A stretch of DNA of 64,000 bases, from contig NC_060023.1 of the NCBI RefSeq assembly GCF_021134715.1, positions 372,001 through 436,000 on the forward strand. Direction: 5' to 3'. Below the pieces are notes generated by a model. That model had not been told where the DNA came from, did no database searches, and saw nothing but the letters and a program-made list of their open reading frames with translations. This document shows positions 43,460 through 61,640 of this stretch, piece after piece (within the stretch, counting starts at the first letter, position 1; each line of letters opens with the position of its first letter). Origin of the DNA: Daphnia pulex. Its lineage: Eukaryota > Arthropoda > Branchiopoda > Diplostraca > Daphniidae. The position numbers were made by a program, and so were the translations under genes.

Positions 43460-44410
43460 TACACAAGTAAGTCAATGATCTAAAACTTTCACTTTTTCGT
43501 AAAATAAAAATGTTTTGTAATGGTTTTTTTACAAATTCACCAACTCAGCAAATAGTAAAAACAAATGATAATAATAAAAAAAAAAATAATAATTCCCAAA
43601 GAATATTTGTTTTTCACGCATGTAAAAAAATCGTAATTTATGAACTGATAGGAGACGATATTATTAAATTTAATAGTCAGATGAGATCACGAGGAGAAAT
43701 AAGCCCATCGTCTTTTTAACGGATGTCCCCTTCTAGCCACATCTTGAAAATGATCCTAGCCCTGTAACAACTATGCATTGCAAAATAAAGTTAACCAGTC
43801 CTCTGCGCGAGTTGTTGGCTACGCTAAACGTCATCAATTACAATTGAGCACACGGGAAGGTTTGCGTTCAATAGGACATGTGGCGTTCAGATATTCCATT
43901 CAGTCGAATAGAAAATGTAATGTGTCGTAATTTAAGATCCTGATTTGATCGAATAACTCGCGCATTCACCCATTTCAAAATAACAGCCGACCCTAAATGT
44001 CAATAAATTAATGAACTGTCTAATTTATTACACCGCAACGCATGCGACGTCATTCGATAACATTTTAATGACTATAATCTATCACGAATTATAAACTATT
44101 AACGGTAATAGAATCAAGAGTCGGCAACAAACTTTTTGATTAAATGTCTGATATTAAAAAGGATCGTTGCTTGCTGCAGACACAAACTTTTAAATGACCT
44201 AGAAGAAAGTTACATGAATCGATAATGTCATTAAAAAAGACTATCCTATTCAGCGTCCATGAGATTATTTGTTGTGGAAACGGACCACTTTGCAAACAGT
44301 TTGACTTTTCCGGTATTATAAAATAACACTACAGGAGCTGTAGGCCTACTGTACTCGTGCAGTTTCAAGCAGTTGAATCGAGAAGATTCTACCAGAAAGT
44401 CTAATTTTCT
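43460..44410. other. Intergenic; promoter of the IR cluster
   Basis: No gene seen. A TATAAAA at 44317-44323 lies about 100 bases before the first IR start codon. Confidence 0.45.
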
Positions 44411-44418
44411 GACTCACC

Positions 44419-46860
44419 ATGTCGAATTTCCTTTTTCCTTTCTTCTTAGTTTCCATTTATTGGTTCACCTTTTCTATTTGTGGCTCGTCATCAACGCCCA
44501 ATCGGCTCAACGGCCAACACCTCCGCGTCATCTGGGTAATAAACATTAAAAACATTTAAGTAGTATAACCAATTAAGAACATTACATTACATATTCTATT
44601 GTAGACACCTTGGAGCGGAAACCCCAAAGGACTCGTAGGACCAGTCAAAGGAGAGCTAGTCCTCGAATTCTTGTCAAAACGTTTGAATTTTACGTAACAC
44701 AGAAATCTAAATTATTTTAAATGGCATTTAACACATTTAACATCTTAATTTACTTCATTACCGGCAAGGTACGAAATGATACGAGTGTTGGACATCCAAC
44801 TGGGACCATTACAAAATGGACGAGGACTCTTCAATTTCCTGCTGGATCAAGTTAAGTTGTTTCCTTTCCATTTGAAATAGAAATTAAGAATTTCCTGATC
44901 TATCGCAGCGATGCGATTTGCTAGTCCACGATCTGGTACCGACATCCCAGCGCAATCAAATCATCGATTTGACATTACCTTGGGCGTACGTAGTGTTTCA
45001 CCGTTGTGCTTTTTTGGATTCGTTATCGTTATCGTTAATCGTTATTTTTTCAATTTTTCATTCGTTTCGTTCTTCGTTTCGTTAATTTAAACGTGTCGCA
45101 TTTTTCTGTTTTTGCGACCGTTATCGTTTACCTTACAATTTTTTTTTAGAACCTAGTTTTCTAAGGCCTGTTAGGTTAAATGATGTAGCGAAAATAATGA
45201 CCTAATTCCTCGCTAGGGGATCGCTAAGCCGCTAGTAGGTGGTCATCCCAAAATTGAAAAATTCCAAATTTTGAGGGGAAAAAAAGTTCCCCTGGTGGTC
45301 AAAAAATTTGAAATCTCTACGGTTTTGATACGAAAAATTTAGCAAGAAATTAACGAAAACAACGAAAAAAACAGCCATTTCGTTATCGTTAACGAAAAAA
45401 ACGAGCATTTTCCAAAAAAATCGATAACGAGGCTCGTTAATACGTTATTTTCGTTGTCGTTATTTAAACGAGTGAAACACTAGGCGTACGATTATTTCGC
45501 TTTCCTCATTCCCGCCCCGGACGAAACGGCCAACATCAACTCGGTCGTCAAACCGTTTCAATGGCAGGTTTGTGCATTTCTACTAGCCCTAAATCTTCAT
45601 TCATATGCCCTTTCACAGCATTAAATTATTCAATTTACAGGTATGGCTAGGGCTGGGGGTATCGATCATTTGCGTCATCGCAGTTTTGAATTCAATCCAG
45701 CGCTACTTGGAATATCGATCCGCACTCCATATGGATTTTAAACCTAGAAATAAAAAACCGAAAACTGGAAATTTGCAAAACAATCGTAAAGTCAAGAGAT
45801 ATCAAACCGGAAAGCAATACCTTTACGTATTAGGCATTTTGCTTTCACAAGGTTATTTAAAATCTAAACTTGACAGTCACCGTCACCAGTCATCAACTTA
45901 TATTTGTCAGGTGGTTTTTGCCCATTAAAATGGCTACCCTATCGACTGGTTGCTGGCGTATGGACCCTGGCCGCTTTCATCTTCGTCCAGTCCTACACGT
46001 CGATTCTATTCACTTACGTCGTGACGCCAATCAATCACCCGCTAATCGATTCCGTCTACGACATAATTGACAACGGCGATATCAATTTCTACGTCAGAGA
46101 ATACGGATTTCTAAACGTTCTATTTAAAGCAAGTTAAAATGGCAAAAGTAAATTCACTTGAGGAACCTGGCTCTAAATTTCTTGTAACGACACACAGACA
46201 ACTAACGAGACGGGACTGTACACGACACTACGAAAAAGACTCGAGTCGTTTCCAAATTCTCGTTGCGCATCGCCATCTGAATGCATCAATTTGATTACGC
46301 CGGGATCCAGAAACGTTTTCGCTGAGGTAAAAATGTTTGACTGTTTTAATTCGACACGAATTTGAAAAAGAACTTTTTAAAATGTATCAAATTCACTAGG
46401 CAAGCGTTTACCTAAGGGACGCAATCAGAATTGATTTTCAAAAGACGGGCAAATGCAACTTGCAAACGGCAAAGGAAAACTTCATCAGTATCATGGCATC
46501 GTTCGCCCTGCCGAAAAACAGTCCCTACACTCAGAGCATAACCCAAGGGTAAGCCAGTAGAGTTCAATGACTTTTCTCTTTTCTTTAAAATTGTCAATTT
46601 CAATTGATGACACAATCTTATACAGAATATTGGAACAGCAGCAAATTGGTCTGATCGAATATTGGTACAAGGGGATGCGCGCCATACCTCCTCAATGTGA
46701 TGTTACAACCAAAATTGGAAATAAGAAAAAGAAAACAACTCCTCTTTCCCTGAAAAATTTGAGCGGCGCATTCATATTCTTATCGATTGGACTGAGTTTT
46801 TCTTTTCTGGTTTTTCTTGGTGAAAAAATTTGTTCGTGGCGCAGATTGCAACAAGATTAG
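44419..46860 (+). CDS. Ionotropic receptor (IR) 1, with transposon-derived intron
   Basis: Ten exons: 44419-44535, 44605-44693, 44769-44850, 44909-44989, 45484-45567, 45641-45851, 45911-46128, 46198-46326, 46400-46548, 46626-46860; 464 aa. Signal peptide, then ligand lobe S1 (GQHLRVIW, LGPLQNGRG, SQRNQIIDLTLPWAY with the Arg expected to contact ligand), M1 (~152-172, WLGLGVSIICVIAVL), pore loop (LLSQGG), M2 (~231-252, AGVWTLAAFIFVQSYTSIL), S2, and M3 (~425-447, FIFLSIGLSFSFLVF). No amino-terminal domain, as in most divergent IRs. Chemosensory cation channel by family. Intron 4 (44990-45483) is a hAT-like element; without it the two halves match the unsplit exon of IR2 and IR3, with a 2-codon duplication (AYAY). 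Intron 7 uses a GC donor (GCAAGT). Confidence 0.85.
44991..45482. mobile_element. hAT-like MITE inside a coding exon of IR1
   Basis: 492 bp with terminal inverted repeats TAGTGTTTCAC (44991-45001) and GTGAAACACTA (45472-82), flanked by the exact 8-bp duplication GGCGTACG (44983-90 and 45483-90). Eight-bp duplications and TAGTG-type ends mark the hAT superfamily. The interior is rich in CGTTATCGTTAA strings and has no transposase. The duplicated GT on the left and the element's terminal A plus the first duplicated G on the right form intron borders. Confidence 0.88.
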
Positions 46861-46869
46861 ATCGATTTA

Positions 46870-48210
46870 AATGCGATGGCATATCTTACGACATGGAAGA
46901 GGAAGCAGAACCCACGAACGCACCAATCGGAAACCAGATATAAAATGAGATTTAAAAAACGATTTAGTAGCCCAGTATTTAATAAAAAGAGTCTTGACAC
47001 AAGGTCCAAATATATACAAACTAAAAGACTATTAATTGTCTTTATTGCCACTTTTGCCAGCCCTACCGCATCAGAACTGCACGCATAATAAAATTTGATC
47101 AAATAAACTCGCAGCTCAAAAACCCATCACGTTCTAATGGATGAGGATTTATAGTGAACTAATCCATGGTCGAGTAAAAATACGAGATACGACTGTAATA
47201 TAGATCTAATGGGCGCGAGGAGATATCAGGTTGTTTGCTTACCCCACAATTCCGGTCGATTAAAAACCGCTGCGAAGTGTCTGCGTCGAAATTCTTTCAA
47301 TTGGCTTTCAGCAGCGCATTAGCAACGGACTGGAACAGCACGTATACGCACATGGTGGACTGCCTTCCAGCTGGATCTGCTTGACAATGTTGCACAAACT
47401 CACTTTTCCACTTTTCGAAATCGACGGATGCGGAATTGCGGATGCAGGCTGCTGGTATCCTATCCCGACTAGAGCGTGAATAAAACCAAATTTAGAGAGA
47501 CTTATTTGAGCAAAATATCAGATATAAATACAACCAGTCTATAGCGTCATTGAGTCCGGTAGGTAAGGCTCTAGTGCACAGTACGGATAGTCCACACGAG
47601 CTATGGAACTTTGATGAAGTGTATCTGGGTTTCAGATGTCTCAGAATATAGTTGACTGCAATTTGAAGTTTGAATGCGTGATGAGAACCTGTCGAACGCA
47701 CTCGAATACATTTACATAGATCAATAGACATGTACAAACCTGTTACAACAAAGTCTAAAATCATCGACGACCGTGTCTCTTATAGGTACCTCCAAACCAG
47801 TCGGTTTGAAGTCTGTGAATTATTACGTACGTCCATTGGTGTACGTTCCATAATGTTTTGGACTGGCCAAAACCAAGACAACTATAGAAGCAAATGCATC
47901 AATCAACTGAATTGCAATGACAGATTTCTTAATGCTTCACGATAAATGCTCACGGCGACTCGCAGGTACCGTTCAAATAATTTCCAAGGTTCAAGATGAC
48001 CCTAGGAACAGATTCAAAACAGCTGACAGCTTTTTCAAACGAGCCAATCATCACGATTGTCTTCCCGTTTCCACAACAAAGGCTTCCATAGTGAATTTTC
48101 ATCATTCTAGAGTAAAAATCCGGTAACATCAGCAGGAGTTGACTTTTAACAGTTTCAGGCAGCAGTTGCACTTTGGAGATCCTGCGACAAACATCAATCT
48201 CCATATCTAC
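46870..48210. other. Intergenic between IR1 and IR2
   Basis: No supported gene. Near 47900 the phrase AACTGAATTGCAATGACAG resembles the start region of IR3 (AACTGAATCGCAATGTCGC), perhaps a remnant of another IR copy; otherwise nothing recognised. Confidence 0.4.
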
Positions 48211-48215
48211 TCGCC

Positions 48216-50117
48216 ATGTCCTATTTACCTTTGGTAATGCTGCTGTACATCTGGTTCGCCATTTCTATTCGCATCAGTTTCTCATCGACGCCCAATCCGC
48301 TCAACGGCCAACACCTGCGCGTCATCTGGGTTAAAGAAAAACAATTATCAGTTTTTATTACAAACAAAATTCAATAAATAAAACATCAAATATTTGGTTG
48401 ATGCAGACACTTTGGAGTGGAAACCCCAAAGGACTAATTGGACCGCTCAAAGGAGCAGTGCTCTTGGAATGCATGTCGAAACGTTTTAATTTCACGTATA
48501 ACAAAAAAACAAAAAATTCATTGACTTATTGTCTCTTTTTAACTTTTATTTTATCCTTCCGGCCAGGTATGAGATGGTTCGGGTGACAGACGCCACACTA
48601 GGGCCATTAGCAAACGGAAAAGGACTTTTTAATTATCTACTGGATCAAGTTAAGTCGCTTTTTTAAAATTTCGGTTTAATAAAAGTTGAGAATGATCTGA
48701 TTCCTCACAGCGATGCGAGTTCCTGGTTCACAATATATATCCAACACTCCGGACGAATGCAGTCGTCGATTTGACACTACCGTGGGCTTACGACGATTAC
48801 GCTTTCGCCATCCCCATCCCCGTTGAAACGGCCAACATTAACGCCGTCGTCAAACCGTTTCAGTGGCAGGTGTCGCATTCAAATTGGTTTTTATTAAAAT
48901 TTCGTATTCAGCAACTATATTCGTTATTATAGATTTGGCTGGGACTAGGAAAATCGATCGTTTGCGTTATTGCAATTTTGAATTTAATCCAGCGCTACCT
49001 GGAATATCGATCCTCACTCGAAACTTCAAATGTTAGACCCAACGATAATAATAACCCACCGACTGAAAAAATAATCACCAAAGGAAGAACCGCAAAACAA
49101 TTTCTCTACGTATTCGGGAACTTACTTTCACAAGGTATTTGTAATATCTCAATTATTCTTTTAATAGAGGAATCACAGGACTTAATTAAATAGGTGGACC
49201 TTGTCCATCGAAAAGATTACCCTATCGACTAGTTGCTGGCGTCTGGATCCTGGCCGCTTTCTTCTTCGTCCAGGCCTACACGTCGACTCTCTTCACATAC
49301 GTCGTGACGCCAATCAATCAGCCGCTAATCAACTCGATCTACGACCTAATTAACAGCAACGATATTAATCTCTACGTCAGGGAATCTAGTCTCATAAATA
49401 CTCTAATATATGTATGTTATAACCAAAATTGAAATCATACGGATTTTTATTACAATCATTTCTTATTGCAACACGACACAGACAGCTAACGAGACAGGAC
49501 TTTATAAGACATTACGAAAAAGACTAGACTCCTTGCCGAATTCTCGATGCACATTGCCGTCGGAATGCATTCAATCTGTCAGACCGGGACTAAGAAACGT
49601 CTTCGCCGAGGTAAAATGTTTGATTTGTAAAAAACAATGTTCGCATTTTCTATTAATTGTTTAATTATTAGTCAACTAATTACCTGAACGACGAAATTCG
49701 AAAACACTATATAAAAACAGGGAAATGCATTGGGCAAATGGCAAAGGAAAAATTCTTCGGCATCACGGTAGCGATGGGCCTACCCAAAAACAGTCCCTAC
49801 ACGCAAACCATAACTCAAGTGTAAGCAATTAATACAACCCAAAGTAAATTAAATCGTTCTTAAATTTCTGTATCGACGTAAATAGGATACTGGAACTACA
49901 AGAAAATGGGCTGATCAACTACTGGGATACCTGGTTCCGACCCATGCCACCGCAGTGTAACGGAAAACCACAAATCAGAAGCAAAAAAACGAAACTTTCG
50001 CCTCTTTCTCTCAAAAATTTGACTGGCGCATTTTTAGTTTTATTGATTGGACTTGGCCTTTCAATTTTGGCTTTCCTCGTCGAAAAAATAATTTCGGTAC
50101 ACGAGCGTCTACGCTAG
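48216..50117 (+). CDS. Ionotropic receptor (IR) 2
   Basis: Nine exons: 48216-48329, 48407-48495, 48567-48648, 48711-48869, 48933-49134, 49194-49411, 49482-49610, 49672-49820, 49886-50117; 457 aa. Same order as IR1: signal peptide, S1 (TLRTNAVVDLTLPWAYDDYA), M1 (WLGLGKSIVCVIAIL), pore and M2 (GGPCPSKRLPYR, VWILAAFFFVQAYTSTLFTY), S2 (LPNSRC..PSEC, LPKNSPYTQTI), M3 (FLVLLIGLGLSILAFLVEKI). Exon 4 is unsplit, which shows the ancestral state of the exon broken in IR1. The sixth intron has an ordinary GT donor (GTATGT) where IR1 and IR3 have GC. All conserved residues are present, so it is probably functional. Ligand unknown. Confidence 0.88.
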
Positions 50118-51811: not shown

Positions 51812-53768
51812 ATGTCGCTCTTACCTTTCTTAGTATTATTCACTTGGTTCTTCATTTCCATTCCCGGTTTCTCATCGACGCCCAATCCGCTCAACGGCCA
51901 ACACCTCCGCGTCATCTGGGTAAAAAAAAAACAATTATCAGTTTTTATTACAAACAAAATTCAATAAATAAAACATCAAATATTTGGTTGATATGCAGCC
52001 ACTTTGGAGTGGAAACCCCAAAGGAATAGTCGGGCCGATCAAAGGAGGAGTGATCCTCGAATTCTTATCGCAACGTTTAAATTTCACGTAACAAAAAAAA
52101 CAAAAAATTAATTAATTGACTTGTCTCTTTTTAACTTTTATTTTATCCTTCCGGCCAGGTACGAGATGGTTCGGGTGACAGACGCCACCCTAGGGCCATT
52201 AGCAAACGGAAAAGGACTTTTCAATTATCTACTGGATCAAGTTAAGTCATTTTTTAAAATTTCGGTTTAATAAAAGTTGAGAATGATCTGACTCATCACA
52301 GCGATGCGAGTTCCTGGTTCAACATATACATCCGACATTCCAGACGAATGCAGTCGTCGATTTGACACTACCGTGGGCTTACGTCGATTGCGTTTTCGCC
52401 ATCCCCATCCCCGTTGAAACGGCCAACATTAACGCCGTCGTCAAACCGTTTCAGCGGCAGGTTGGAATATTTAAAGAACTTCCAACAATATTTCAGATTC
52501 AACAGCATCTACTTCTATTCGATCACCAGGTTTGGTTAGGACTGGGGATATCGATCGTTTGCGTCATCGTAGTTTTAAATTTAATCCAGCGCTACTTGCA
52601 ATATCGATCGGTGATTGAAACGACATTTACACCAAACAACCATCTAGCACCGACTGAAAAAATAATCACCAAAGGAGAAACCGGAAAACAGTACCTCTAC
52701 GTCTTTGGCAATTTGCTGTCACAAGGTTTAACGAATCAAATGATTCGTTTGTTTTGACAGCTGTACGAATATTCATAGCAACAATAAGTCACAACTGCTT
52801 CATTATCAATTAGGTGGCGTTTGTCCATCGAAACGGTTACCCTATCGACTAGTCGCTGGCGTTTGGATCCTGGCCGCTTTCATCTTCGTCCAGGCCTACA
52901 CGTCGACTCTGATCACCTACGTCGTGACGCCAATCAATCAGCCACTAATCAATTCCGTCTACGATGTTGCTGGCAGTAGCGACATCAATTTACTTGTCAG
53001 AGAAACGGGACTTTTAAATGAGTTACTTTCGGCAAGTCAAAAACGTAAATAAATTCAAAGAGCATAATGATCAAAGTTCATTTTCATTTTGACACGAGAC
53101 AGACCAACAATTTCACGGGACTATTTGCGACATTGCGAAAAAAAATTGATGCAGTCCCGAATTCTCGATGTGTTATTCCGTCTGAATGCATACGTTTGAT
53201 GACACCAGGTTCAAGAAACGTTTTCTTTGATGTAAGCTATGCATTCAAGTCTAATTATACAAACATTGTTTTCATTTTTTTAATTGATTATAACTATTGA
53301 CTATAGGTAAAGTCTTTTGTATTGGATGAAATCAGAAAAGATTATATGAAGACGGGCAAATGCAACTTTCAAATAGCGAAAGAAAGTTTCCTCAGCGCCA
53401 TGGCCTCGTTTGCCCTTCCGAAAAACAGTCCCTACACTCAGAGCATAAGCCAAGGGTAAGAAAGTAAAAACTAAAATGTCGCTTCTTCATTCAAGTTGTA
53501 TAACATTTGTTTCAATCAAATTAGACTATTGGAACTGATGCAGATTGGCCTCATCGACCACTGGGACACGTGGTTCCGCCCCATGCCTCCTCAATGTGAT
53601 GGTAAACCCAAAAGTGGAAACAAGACAAAGACTTCTCCTCTTTCTCTGAAAAATTTGACCGGTGCATTTTTAGTTTTACTTGCTGGACTGAGCCTTTCGA
53701 TTTTAGTTTTCCTCATCGAAAAAATCAATTCTGTCTCTAAATGTCGTCGCAGTCGCATTGGGAATTAA
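51812..53768 (+). CDS. Ionotropic receptor (IR) 3
   Basis: Nine exons: 51812-51919, 51999-52087, 52159-52240, 52302-52460, 52530-52725, 52814-53031, 53103-53231, 53307-53455, 53525-53768; 457 aa. Same architecture as IR2. Differences worth noting: the S1 Arg that is SQR or TLR in the other two is Gln (TFQTNAVVDLTLPW); the Trp before M1 in FQWQ is Arg (FQRQ); DDYA is VDCV. Intron 4 (52461-52529) is 69 nt, a multiple of three and free of stops, so its retention would add 23 residues. Intron 6 uses GCAAGT as donor. M1, M2 (QAYTSTLITY) and M3 (FLVLLAGLSLSILVF) are intact. Confidence 0.87.
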
Positions 53769-56509: not shown

Positions 56510-58993
56510 ATGACAAAACTATCGGTAAGTTTTACATTTAAGTAGACACATTTAGCGATTAACTATTGACATGATTGTCAATTATTCTTTCTTCAATTAA
56601 ACCATGTGTAGTTGGTTGTGTTTGTTTGGATTTGGCACTGTGCTGTCTATGGCCAGTTACCCCTAAATAATGTTGATTACAATCCCTACACTTCTACGTT
56701 CTTGAGTCAACCGACTAAACAAATAAGAGCAGCTAGAGCAACTGGTCGATTGGGAAATCCACAGAACATTAGGGATGCTTTAAGTCTGAGTGCCATTTCC
56801 TTACAACTAAATAAACAAATTGAAGCTACGACTGCCAGCTTAGCAAGTCAACTAAAAGGTCTAAAATAAAGCCATATTATTTTCCCAAAACAAATTGGAA
56901 ATTTTATAAAACTTTAAACATTGCAGATACAAATGACAAATTAGAAAAAACTAACGCAGATTTATCCAGTACGCAAAAACAGGTTTCTGATTTGATGGAG
57001 GCATTGACAAGTACACATTTTATTTTGTCCGCAATTTAAATGAGTATTGTGCCGGAAATAAATTTCAAAAATTGTTCACAGAAGCAAATGATGCAACGAA
57101 AGCTGCACAAGCAGATCTAGACAAAACGAACAGCGCTCTTTCACAATGGAGTGCAGCACTGAAAGGTGTTTAATAATTTTATCGAAATTAAAAATACTGT
57201 TGCATAAATTAATTTCTGAAAATTATTTACAGCAAAAGCCTCAAAAGAAGAACTATATGGCGCCGTTTCACATTTTACTGCAGCATTGGACGGTGTTTAA
57301 ATCAAAATTTTAAATTGTTGTAAATTTATTATCAAACATTTCTTTACAGAAAAAGCCTTTAAAGAAGAAATGGATCACGCCGTTGGACAATTGACTACAG
57401 CATTGGATGGTATTTTTAATCTATTTGAAATTTAAACAAATGTTATGTAAACTGATTTTGGAAAATTATTTATAGAAAAAGTCTCAAAAGAAAAATTCCA
57501 TGGCACTGTTGCACAATTGACTGCAGCATTGGACGGTATTTAAATTTTATGTAAATTTCAGTTTTGTAAATCAATTTTCGAAAACTATTTATAGCAAAAG
57601 CTTCAAAAGGGGAACTGGTTGGCACCGTTGCACAATTGACAAAAGCATTGGACGGTATTTCAATTTATCGAAATTTAGATAAATATTACGTCAATTGATT
57701 ATGGTAAACTATTTATAGCCAAAGCTTCAAATGAAGAACTGGTTGACGCCGAGGAACAGTTGAATGCAGCATTGGACAGTATTTAAATCTGCTATTTTTA
57801 CATTTTAAGTTAACGTTAGGTAAACTAATTTTTGGAAACGATTAACAGCAAAAGCCTCAAAAGAAGATCTGGAGGAAGCCGTCGAACAATTGACTACAGC
57901 ATTGGATGGTAATGGTATTAAAATTTATTTACCTTTCAATTAATAGTTTTCAAAAACTATTTGTTTATAATGTTATAGCGAAAGCCTTAAAAGAAGAACT
58001 GGATAGCGCCGTCGCAAAATTTACTACTAACGGGACTGCAGCATTGAACAGTATTCATTAAAAATGTATTTAAATTCCTATTTTGTAACTTAATTATAAA
58101 CAACTATTTACAGCAAAAGCCTCAAAATCAGACCTGGAAGCAACGAATTTAGAAGTTTCAAAGTTGAAAGGTGATGCTCTAAAATTTTATTTTTTTACTC
58201 AATAAGAATTTAAAAAAAATCAACTTTGATCATTTTAAATATTTTACAAAAATGAAGTTAACACATCGATAAACCATTCAGATTTTTTTTTAAATTAATT
58301 TTCCCCAGTCCTTACGAGTCCTAATTCAAATGGAGCAATCCCCACCTCATGTGGAGACCTCAAAACTTTCGGCTTTGCCAAAAGCGGAATCTACTCCGTT
58401 ATGATCAGCAAACAAGTCCAAAACGTCTACTGCGATTTTTCTAAATCAAACGATGCAGGTATAGACTTTGCAATTCAATTAAGAGCTTAGTTATACCACA
58501 ATGTTCTGCAATCACTCTTTCGTTTTATATATTTTGATGACACGCAGGTTTGCAAAAATGGATTGGTATCGTCGATGTAAAATCGGCACCTGTTTATTTC
58601 CAAGCTCAACGGACATCTAGCTATTCGACTGTCGACAGCGTCGTTCCGTTTGATTTAATCAGACTCAATGATGGGAAGGCATTGGACCCTTCCGGAGTAT
58701 TCGTTGCACCTGCACCAGGAAAATATTTTTTCGGTTTTTCAGGTCTTAGTGATAACGGTGCCCTCGCAAGAGTAGTGTTGGAGGTGAAAACTGCAACAGT
58801 GGATTGGTCCAGAGTTGGAGAAGGGTACGGTGACACAACGTTTAAGACTTTCGCTTTCCACGCTACATTGGAACTCCTCAAAGGCGACCAAGTTAGACTG
58901 GTCTTGACAGAAGGAGCCATTCACGATAGCGATCTACATTTTTACACTAACTTTGTCGGTGTTTTAATCGCGCAAAACGAATTAACGGTTTAA
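56510..58993 (+). CDS. Secreted coiled-coil protein with C1q domain (exon-cassette stalk)
   Basis: Fourteen exons: 56510-56524, 56612-56858, 56927-57010, 57082-57165, 57233-57292, 57350-57409, 57476-57535, 57595-57654, 57719-57778, 57849-57908, 57979-58050, 58114-58170, 58309-58458, 58548-58993; 504 aa, no break. Signal peptide (LVVFVWIWHCAVYGQ), a linker (YNPYTSTFLSQPTKQ), then a stalk. Exons 5-10 are each 60 nt, phase 1 to phase 1, encoding variants of AKASKEELxxAVxQLTAALD. Exon 13 has TSCGDLKTFGFAKSGIYSV...VYCDFSK and exon 14 the C1q domain (~357-504, VYFQAQRTSSY, FVAPAPGKYFFGFSG, LLKGDQVRLVL, NFVGVLIAQ). Family role: extracellular trimeric recognition or adhesion. Next to a fucosyltransferase. 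Confidence 0.88.
57233..58170 (+). repeat. Tandem exon-intron cassettes, gene 4
   Basis: Eight units with exon starts spaced 117-135 bp: 57233, 57350, 57476, 57595, 57719, 57849, 57979, 58114. Each has an exon of 60, 72 or 57 nt beginning (G/A)AAAGC.T.AAA and an intron ending TTATAG or TTTACAG. Confidence 0.85.
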
Positions 58994-58999
58994 TTCTTT

Positions 59000-61640
59000 T
59001 TTCTGTTCTGAAAATTCCTAATCCTGAGTAGTAATTTCTGTCTTTATTACTGGACATCAATGTTTTTCATAGCTGACACAACATAGTAGCTCACATTAAT
59101 TGGTTAATGAAAACTTTTTCAGAAATATACGTGAGAGAAGAATTAAAATGAGCAGGACCATTTGGTGTGTGGCGGTAATAGGTCCTACTTGATCACAAAA
59201 ACTTCTAGTTGCACTCTGCTATAAGTGATTAAAGTAAAAATATTTTGGAATTTGTTTGTTAATCCACAGACAATTAAAGTTGTGAGGAAAAACAAAACCG
59301 AGCCACCCCTGACGACTGACGGGAGTAAACAAAAACGGTAAGAGGAAACGGCCAACAGCCTAGCCCAGGAATAGTAATCCTACTCCATACTATGTCGCGA
59401 TTGATAAACAACGCCACTTAATAATCAAAAAGGAAGAATAATGATCAACTGTGTCCTACCTTTAAGCCTGGTAAATCTACGGCCAGGCATCCAGCATGTG
59501 ATCCATCCGCTGAATAGTGAAATCCACCACACACACATGGGTGTACACGAGGATAGAGGGAATTAAAAGAAAGGGGAAGAATAGATCCGTAACTCGGCTG
59601 ACATCAGTAGTTTCTCCATTCCAATCCAACGGGATGTTGTTTATCTGATTGAAAAATAAAAATTGTGTTACGACAAATATTGACAGAAACAACAAGTAAA
59701 AGTTGAATGAGACACTGGGTTAACCCTAACTTGAAATCAATATGAGAATTTAAGGTTTCAATCTAAAACACTGCATTTGTGTGAGTCTGCATCATTAAAA
59801 TATCTAGCAGGCCGCAGTAATAAAAGTAACACAAATCAATATACCTTGTACAGCGATTTCATGAGATTGTTTTTGGAGGCAGATCAATTCCAGCACAAGC
59901 AACACTTGCATGTCTTGTGGTAGTGACGACTAGCTCAGGCCTCAAATCTGCACGAGAAGGTTACGAAAGAAGAAGATTACAGTGCAAAGAAACTGCCATG
60001 CATTGACAGGGGCTGGCATGATAAATGCTAGTCAGAAACTAACAAAAAAGGTTTAACTCTACTATTCAAGCCCCCGTAATCATTGGCATTCAAATACTTA
60101 GTTTCCTGCTAAACAGCATGGAGTGGAGAACATGACATGAGGGCCGCGACACCAAACTTCCACGTTTTCGTAATTCTATTTGCTGGGCTATTTTTCATGT
60201 AAAATTACGTATAAAAAGTTTCCAAAAAGTGATTATTCCGTTTTCTTTGTAATCTTTTACATTCGTCTCTTTTTCTAAACTTTCAAGTAAAACGAGAGCA
60301 GCAGACGACACTCATTTTTTAAGATATCGATAGAAATTGTTAAAATCGATTTTCCTTAAACCTCCGCTAAATTCAAACAGCTCAAAAACGATCAAAGCGG
60401 TTTTCTCAGCCGCGCTAGACATCCGCTGAGCGAATCGCAGGGATCAGGATTATTTTTAGTATCTCAAAGTTCGTCTCAACAAGACTAATCCCCGTTTTAA
60501 TCCGAAATAACCGCCATCACAATAAGACCCTCCAGGACCTTCTTGGAAGCCAAGAAGGAATGAAAAGATCATTTTGCTTCGTTTGGCATTTTACTCTTGA
60601 ATGTCTTTCACAGCAAACAAGAAATGTAAGCGACTGATCTAGGAGGTTTGTTTGCATGGTGCTGTTCACCTATTTTCTCTAACAGACTTCCAATTTTATT
60701 TGGATAAATTTTGGGTTTAGCTTAGAAAATCTCAATGAAATTAAACCCAAATCCTGTTTGATGAACATCAAGGTACGCCATTTACAAGTGTGATTTATCC
60801 ACTTTATCAAATTTTCTTCAGAATTATTAGAACATTTCCTTTTTACGCCTTTTTATAATAAGAACAACAATATTTTTCATTCAGGGTTCGCCATCTCTCA
60901 TTACTCACTATAATTCAATCATCATTATATACTTAAAAAAAAGACGTCCGTTGATCAGCGTGAAATGCGTTAATTTGTGGAATTTTGATTACGTCCACGG
61001 GCTGTATTAATAAGTAAAATTAGCTACTGAATAAGTCGCCAAGAAGCCGCCATAGTCGGAGGTCGCCCTCCCAGCTCATCGCTCACGACCATCGGACATT
61101 CAATTTACATCTGATGAACATGCCAACAGATTAATTGTTGGCATACAATTGTAATATTTATAAGGAAGCTTTAATGAATAACCACCGCACTACTTTTAAA
61201 TTCCAAACTCCACGATGTGATGCCCTATGCATAAATATGGTGCGTAGCTACTTATACTTTTGAAAAAAGCACCCACAGATCTCGGATGCCTTCCAGACTC
61301 GTCAGCAAGTGACACCGGAAGACACTGTCTATTACTAATGCCATCAATCTTTGCCATTAATCAAACTTTTCGCTTCATGTAATATTAGAGACGGATGAAC
61401 ATGTCCAGAAATTTTGGTGGGGATGTTAAGTTATAGCGTCAAATCTTCATTGCAATAAAATTAAGGACATACTTTAGTTTAAATATTGTTCGACTGAGTT
61501 TTACCACAAGTAAAATCAAATAAACAAGTTTAAAGTCAAGGTAAGCGTGGGACCGTGGGTCATAAAAAAGAAGGGAGGACTCGTGACTCGTGTCGAGGTC
61601 AACGGGGCTGCAATAGACAAGCGAGGGGAATGAACTACTT
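59000..61640. other. Intergenic between the two C1q genes
   Basis: No supported gene. Contains an inverted copy of the dispersed repeat at 59860-60070. Confidence 0.45.
59860..60070 (-). repeat. Dispersed repeat, copy 3 (inverted)
   Basis: Reverse strand carries GTCAATGCATGGCAGTTT, TTTGCACTGTAATC and TGCAGATTTGAGGCCTGAGC, matching 35390-35600. Confidence 0.55.

Follow-up and report, generated by a model that had tools for sequence, protein, structure and literature searches.

Besides hAT MITEs, two described systems come closest to the locus analysed here, introners and the recently gained introns of Daphnia. In the accessible sections of Gozashti et al. 2022 (PMC9860276), 161 of the 175 genomes show introner enrichment within genes, and introners recur as introns in many genes. 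According to these sections, introners of Aureococcus add 12 bp, 8 of which derive from the duplication. Only two groups within animals and land plants are recorded there as having introners, both of them animals. Intron gain is documented for Daphnia (PMC4202315, PMC5427498). As described in the accessible text of Li et al. 2014 (PMC4202315) and Ye et al. 2017 (PMC5427498), these recent introns are about 72–78 bp long with 75–80% A+T, are attributed to double-strand-break repair and have cDNA/RNA support. A hAT-derived intron in Daphnia was not recognised in the titles and abstract openings of the open-licence literature, among the matches listed.

The window (the whole stretch of DNA analysed, 64,000 nucleotides, C7:372001-436000) contains a transposon copy in exon 4 of an ionotropic receptor gene, IR1. 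In line with what is accessible on introners, the target-site duplication helps to form the splice dinucleotides, which are supplied by element and duplication together, and a whole number of codons would be added. Unlike introners, which were found as introns in different genes, one of 21 full-length copies lies in a clearly coding frame, and the intron is a candidate from its sequence alone. By analogy, the IR1 element would work like an introner if it were spliced, but it lacks the recurrence. With recent Daphnia introns, as far as the two sources describe them, it shares the exonic insertion, the short direct repeat that is often present at the ends and the GT..AG placement. It differs from them in the length of the candidate intron (494 nt), in its 66% A+T and in being a transposon copy. 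Whereas introns from double-strand breaks are short, very AT-rich and have no transposon source, the element measures 492 bp, has a GC content of 0.34 and belongs to a family of at least 21 full-length copies.

IR1 and its paralogues

IR1 (44419–46860, + strand) was delimited by exon alignment with the tandem paralogues IR2 (48216–50117, + strand) and IR3 (51812–53768, + strand). Each of these genes has nine exons, and eight intron positions are in common. Exons 1–5 of IR1 were located at 44419–44535, 44605–44693, 44769–44850, 44909–45567 and 45641–45851, and exons 6–9 at 45911–46128, 46198–46326, 46400–46548 and 46626–46860 (all + strand). The protein encoded without the insert (462 aa) matched PF00060 Lig_chan (4.7e-15) and PF10613 Lig_chan-Glu_bd (2.1e-8), both above the Pfam cut-off. 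IR1 is an ionotropic receptor, with the ligand-gated ion channel and the glutamate-binding domain both present. The coding sequence ends at 46860. Disabling changes were looked for in the eight exons other than exon 4, and all eight were open. Exon 4 (159 nt without the insert) is a multiple of three with boundaries between codons, so that the reading frame would survive its skipping.

The counterpart of exon 4 is unbroken in IR2 (48711–48869) and IR3 (52302–52460). Thirteen more paralogues from six genomic stretches were aligned to IR2 using a splice-aware program, with GT sites scored equally and GC sites penalised. The insertion site was unbroken in all 15 paralogues (IR2, IR3 and the 13 others), and the length of the peptide around it was constant in 15/15. 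No intron was present within 15 codons of the site in IR2, IR3 or the 13 further paralogues. Judged from these alignments, the insertion in IR1 is the derived state.

Pairwise dN/dS among IR1–3 amounted to 0.28–0.35. Because of these values, and because the rest of IR1 is intact, the gene was constrained for most of its history. Stops within aligned exons were encountered in 1 of the 13 fetched paralogues, indicating that decay occurs in the receptor family. This close relative of IR2 (L030, C5:2104199-2105653) has its aligned exons interrupted by two in-frame stops and is probably a pseudogene.

Further observations were made on the array. IR2 had 194 matches genome-wide and, among the matches listed, most were on C7, pointing to a large receptor expansion (C7:258430-1355439, C5:2104199-2110236 and C10). 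Intron 6 of the family was GC-AG in 11 of the 14 genes scored there, including IR1 (46129–46197) and IR3 (53032–53102), the others coming from stretches L030–L035. It is a conserved GC-AG intron within the tandem array, where its frequency greatly exceeds the roughly 1% that is usual for GC-AG introns. The donor of intron 2 is unusual (NAC|GTANNN; window positions 44694, 48496 and 52088, and stretches L030–L035): C precedes GT in 14/14 genes, and G is found at +5 in 1/14. Elsewhere in the window (56600–59000), short repeated coiled-coil-like exons are followed by an open frame, which we take to resemble a C1q-type domain.

A hAT MITE in exon 4

The non-autonomous hAT MITE occupies 44991–45482 (+ strand; 492 bp including the inverted ends). 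It is flanked by the target-site duplication GGCGTACG at 44983–44990 and again at 45483–45490 (8/8 bases each). Its left (44991–45001, TAGTGTTTCAC) and right (45472–45482, GTGAAACACTA) terminal inverted repeats (both + strand) agree in 11/11 bp. The exact duplication, the inverted ends, the intact paralogous exons and the open remainder of IR1 had all been described in the first-pass annotation and were reproduced. Its 492 bp are correct for the whole element but not for the interior, as 470 bp lie between the ends. Rfam gave no match within 44000–47500. Public genomes of bacteria and archaea, searched with the 30-base empty-site sequence for possible Daphnia contamination, gave 0 matches, in a search that may omit near records.

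A DNA search of the Daphnia genome itself (133.19 Mb in 13 contigs) yielded at least 30 matching stretches, at least 21 of them full-length, and the 20 other full-length copies were fetched. A perfect 8-bp target-site duplication (8/8 bases each) was present in 21/21 full-length copies, and the insertion structure in IR1 is accordingly more than chance. Two subfamilies of 14 and 7 copies were separated by a tree with full support. The copies start with TAGTGTTTCAC in 14 cases and with TAGTGTTGTTC in 7.

On contig C3, left and right parts of the MITE flank a hAT dimerisation domain (PF05699). In stretch L029, a 3,360-bp element terminates in MITE sequence on either side and is flanked by a perfect duplication, CAAAACGA. 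Four of its open frames were scanned. Dimer_Tnp_hAT was matched in one (9.7e-14), a BED finger below the cut-off was seen in another, and the remaining two had no domain match. Because this relative combines the ends of the MITE with a hAT domain and an 8-bp duplication, the 492-bp element is identified as an internally deleted hAT, and the former label "hAT-like" can be replaced by hAT. A second hAT dimerisation domain, flanked by two MITE-like parts, was noted at C1:69148-71985 and is perhaps another full-length relative. The 8-bp duplications, the short inverted ends and the existence of a relative with matching ends and hAT dimerisation domain are as in MITEs of the hAT superfamily. Nothing essential sets the IR1 element apart from these, its family having two subfamilies with slightly different ends.

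Frame, GT..AG placement and splice-site strength

The candidate intron extends from 44990 to 45483 (+ strand, 494 nt), with the donor TAC|GTAGTG and the acceptor CACTAG|GCG. As annotated previously, GT is found at 44990–44991 (G of the duplication and T of the element) and AG at 45482–45483 (A of the element and G of the duplication). Excision of 44990–45483 restores the frame and adds Ala-Tyr (six nt), also as annotated. Reading through the MITE leads to a stop at the 32nd codon past the last unaffected codon, where about 30 codons had been given. Frame restoration is automatic wherever a TA..TA element lands, because an 8-nt duplication minus 2 leaves 6 nt. The GT..AG flanks result from an element that begins and ends with TA and a target that begins and ends with G, and the latter is the sole real coincidence. 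GT..AG placement was found in 8 of the 42 strand orientations of the 21 copies (95% interval 9–34%; 7/40 excluding the IR1 copy), and each target end was G or C in 18/21 cases. This placement is probably a base-rate event, at about 1 in 5 per strand, rather than the product of an intron-making element. Of the earlier reading as a MITE turned intron, the hAT MITE identity is supported by the relative with matching ends and hAT domain. The intron remains a candidate, and frame restoration (automatic) and GT..AG placement (8/42) carry little weight as evidence for it.

A search for further copies inside genes, as suggested in the first-pass annotation, yielded no second one in a clearly coding frame among the 20 other full-length copies. 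Seven others are GT-AG placed, and none has a coding-like frame on the GT-AG strand (best score −2.2 vs +11.1 for IR1). On either strand, the best frame score among the 20 other copies was 3.7, and 11 were without an open 150-bp frame across the site. Of 15 further long frames at MITE copies, 10 were scanned with Pfam, and none gave a match above the cut-off. The IR1 frame is the single clearly coding one by this test, which could miss exons that lack a Pfam domain or whose codon use is unusual.

Splice models were built from 118 homology-defined introns (107 GT, 11 GC) of 16 genes, representing 8 positions only. For the ranks given below, the scored intron position was left out, while per-site scores in 44900–45660 were computed with the full model, including the natural sites of IR1 itself. 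Self-trained ab initio gene finding had been tried as a general Daphnia splice model, recovered 9/24 and 6/24 known IR introns and was replaced.

The candidate donor scored 2.73, with 39 of 107 real donors no higher. It is within the natural range and no worse than many real donors of the IR family, in which intron 2 likewise has C ahead of GT (14/14 genes) and seldom G at +5 (1/14). The candidate acceptor scored 0.51 (19/118 real acceptors no higher), and the 3' end of IR1 intron 7 is the identical CACTAG|GC. In 254 kb, 25% of 27,491 GT and 32% of 26,861 AG scored at least as high as the candidate, so that the IR splice model cannot call it a site. Between −20 and −5 (16 bases), the candidate acceptor has 31% pyrimidines vs a mean of 58% for real IR acceptors, 0/118 of which were as low. 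Within 44900–45660, 12 of 27 AG outscored 45483; seven of these lie in the element, the best being 45156 (5.46 vs 1.14, full model). Likewise, 11 of 49 GT outscored 44990, with seven in the element and 45175 as the best (7.19 vs 3.01, full model). The predicted fold (z −4.5, naked 561-nt RNA) places both splice dinucleotides in one terminal stem, where GT of the donor is base-paired and AG of the acceptor forms a bulge. The 494 nt of the candidate intron compare with 57–205 nt (median 71) for the 118 IR introns. Seven pairs of sites (5 GT, 2 GC) would keep the frame free of stops, and 44990/45483 had the best summed score. The GC pair 44984/45483, which would restore the ancestral protein exactly, was rejected (donor −1.8 vs at least 7.3 for the 11 real GC donors).

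Age and fate of the insertion

The IR1 copy was compared with the 13 other copies of subfamily A. Position 45420 differs from 13/13 and 45229 from 12/13 (the exception being L020, which carries an indel close by); 12/13 comparisons also showed an indel at 45257. The private changes of the copy thus number 1–2 substitutions, plus one indel that is nearly private. At about 1e-9 to 3.8e-9 mutations per site per generation, as stated in the accessible part of PMC11550904, a divergence of 0.2–0.4% would correspond to roughly 0.5–4 million generations, a highly uncertain age. Assuming a 15% indel share, an IR1 free of constraint since the insertion would have escaped any other disabling change with a chance of 0.31–0.56 (one or two substitutions) or 0.17 (three). 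With so young an insertion, the open exons of IR1 are therefore no proof of function.

Exon 4 of IR1, a gene that is intact otherwise, has received a non-autonomous hAT element by recent transposition, with 8 bp duplicated. We regard it as likely that the IR1 allele in the assembly is mainly a recent loss-of-function insertion in one member of a large chemoreceptor array. Most IR1 transcripts would then keep the MITE or use splice sites inside it, and would run into a stop soon past the insertion point (at the 32nd codon on read-through), before the membrane segments are reached. The mid-range donor, the acceptor shared with IR1 intron 7, the dN/dS of 0.28–0.35, the otherwise intact gene and the known intron gain in Daphnia count against loss of function. 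The same donor (mid-range among 107 real ones), together with GT and AG in position, a preserved frame, the top summed score among the seven permissible pairs and the intact remainder of IR1, would favour useful removal of the MITE as a new 494-nt GT-AG intron, with Ala-Tyr added and IR1 at least partly functional. This outcome seems rather unlikely to us. The evidence leans against clean splicing in that the acceptor is pyrimidine-poor, stronger sites compete inside the MITE, base pairing in the terminal stem involves the donor, 494 nt is large and a second clearly exonic copy was absent from the 21. A spliced product would still carry an insertion absent elsewhere, because the peptide length is constant in the 15 paralogues. 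The accessible text of Li et al. 2014 (PMC4202315) suggests that the splicing machinery of Daphnia may be relatively stringent, and the sources of new introns given in its section 23 include no transposon.

Partial removal or bypass, by cryptic sites in the MITE (such as acceptors 45156, 45174 and 45216 or donor 45175) or by skipping of exon 4, would give aberrant or shortened receptors and is improbable. The internal sites do score above the terminal ones, but a model of one gene family separates real from random sites poorly, as the shares of GT and AG scoring like the candidate illustrate. Skipping of the 159-nt exon would keep the frame but remove 53 residues of the ligand-binding domain. 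An assembly error at the locus is very improbable: one assembly stands behind it, but the 8-bp duplication is perfect and the ends are exact, which is what a real transposition leaves and what the 20 other full-length copies show. The favoured loss-of-function explanation would also be compatible with an insertion that only the sequenced clone carries.

If unspliced, the insertion would amount to an insertional allele of an ordinary kind, in a large array of chemoreceptor genes. It would then also be a caution, as TA-ended hAT elements give frame restoration and GT-AG flanks nearly free. That a hAT MITE was caught becoming an intron in an animal, with G-N6-G exonic targets yielding a frame-keeping GT-AG intron and two added codons, is a doubtful proposition on present evidence. 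If the MITE is spliced, it would exemplify a transposon route to new introns in Daphnia in which element family, target and paralogous empty sites are all visible. About 1 in 5 exonic insertions would then qualify, and the family would be a standing source of frame-neutral Daphnia introns beside the double-strand-break route.
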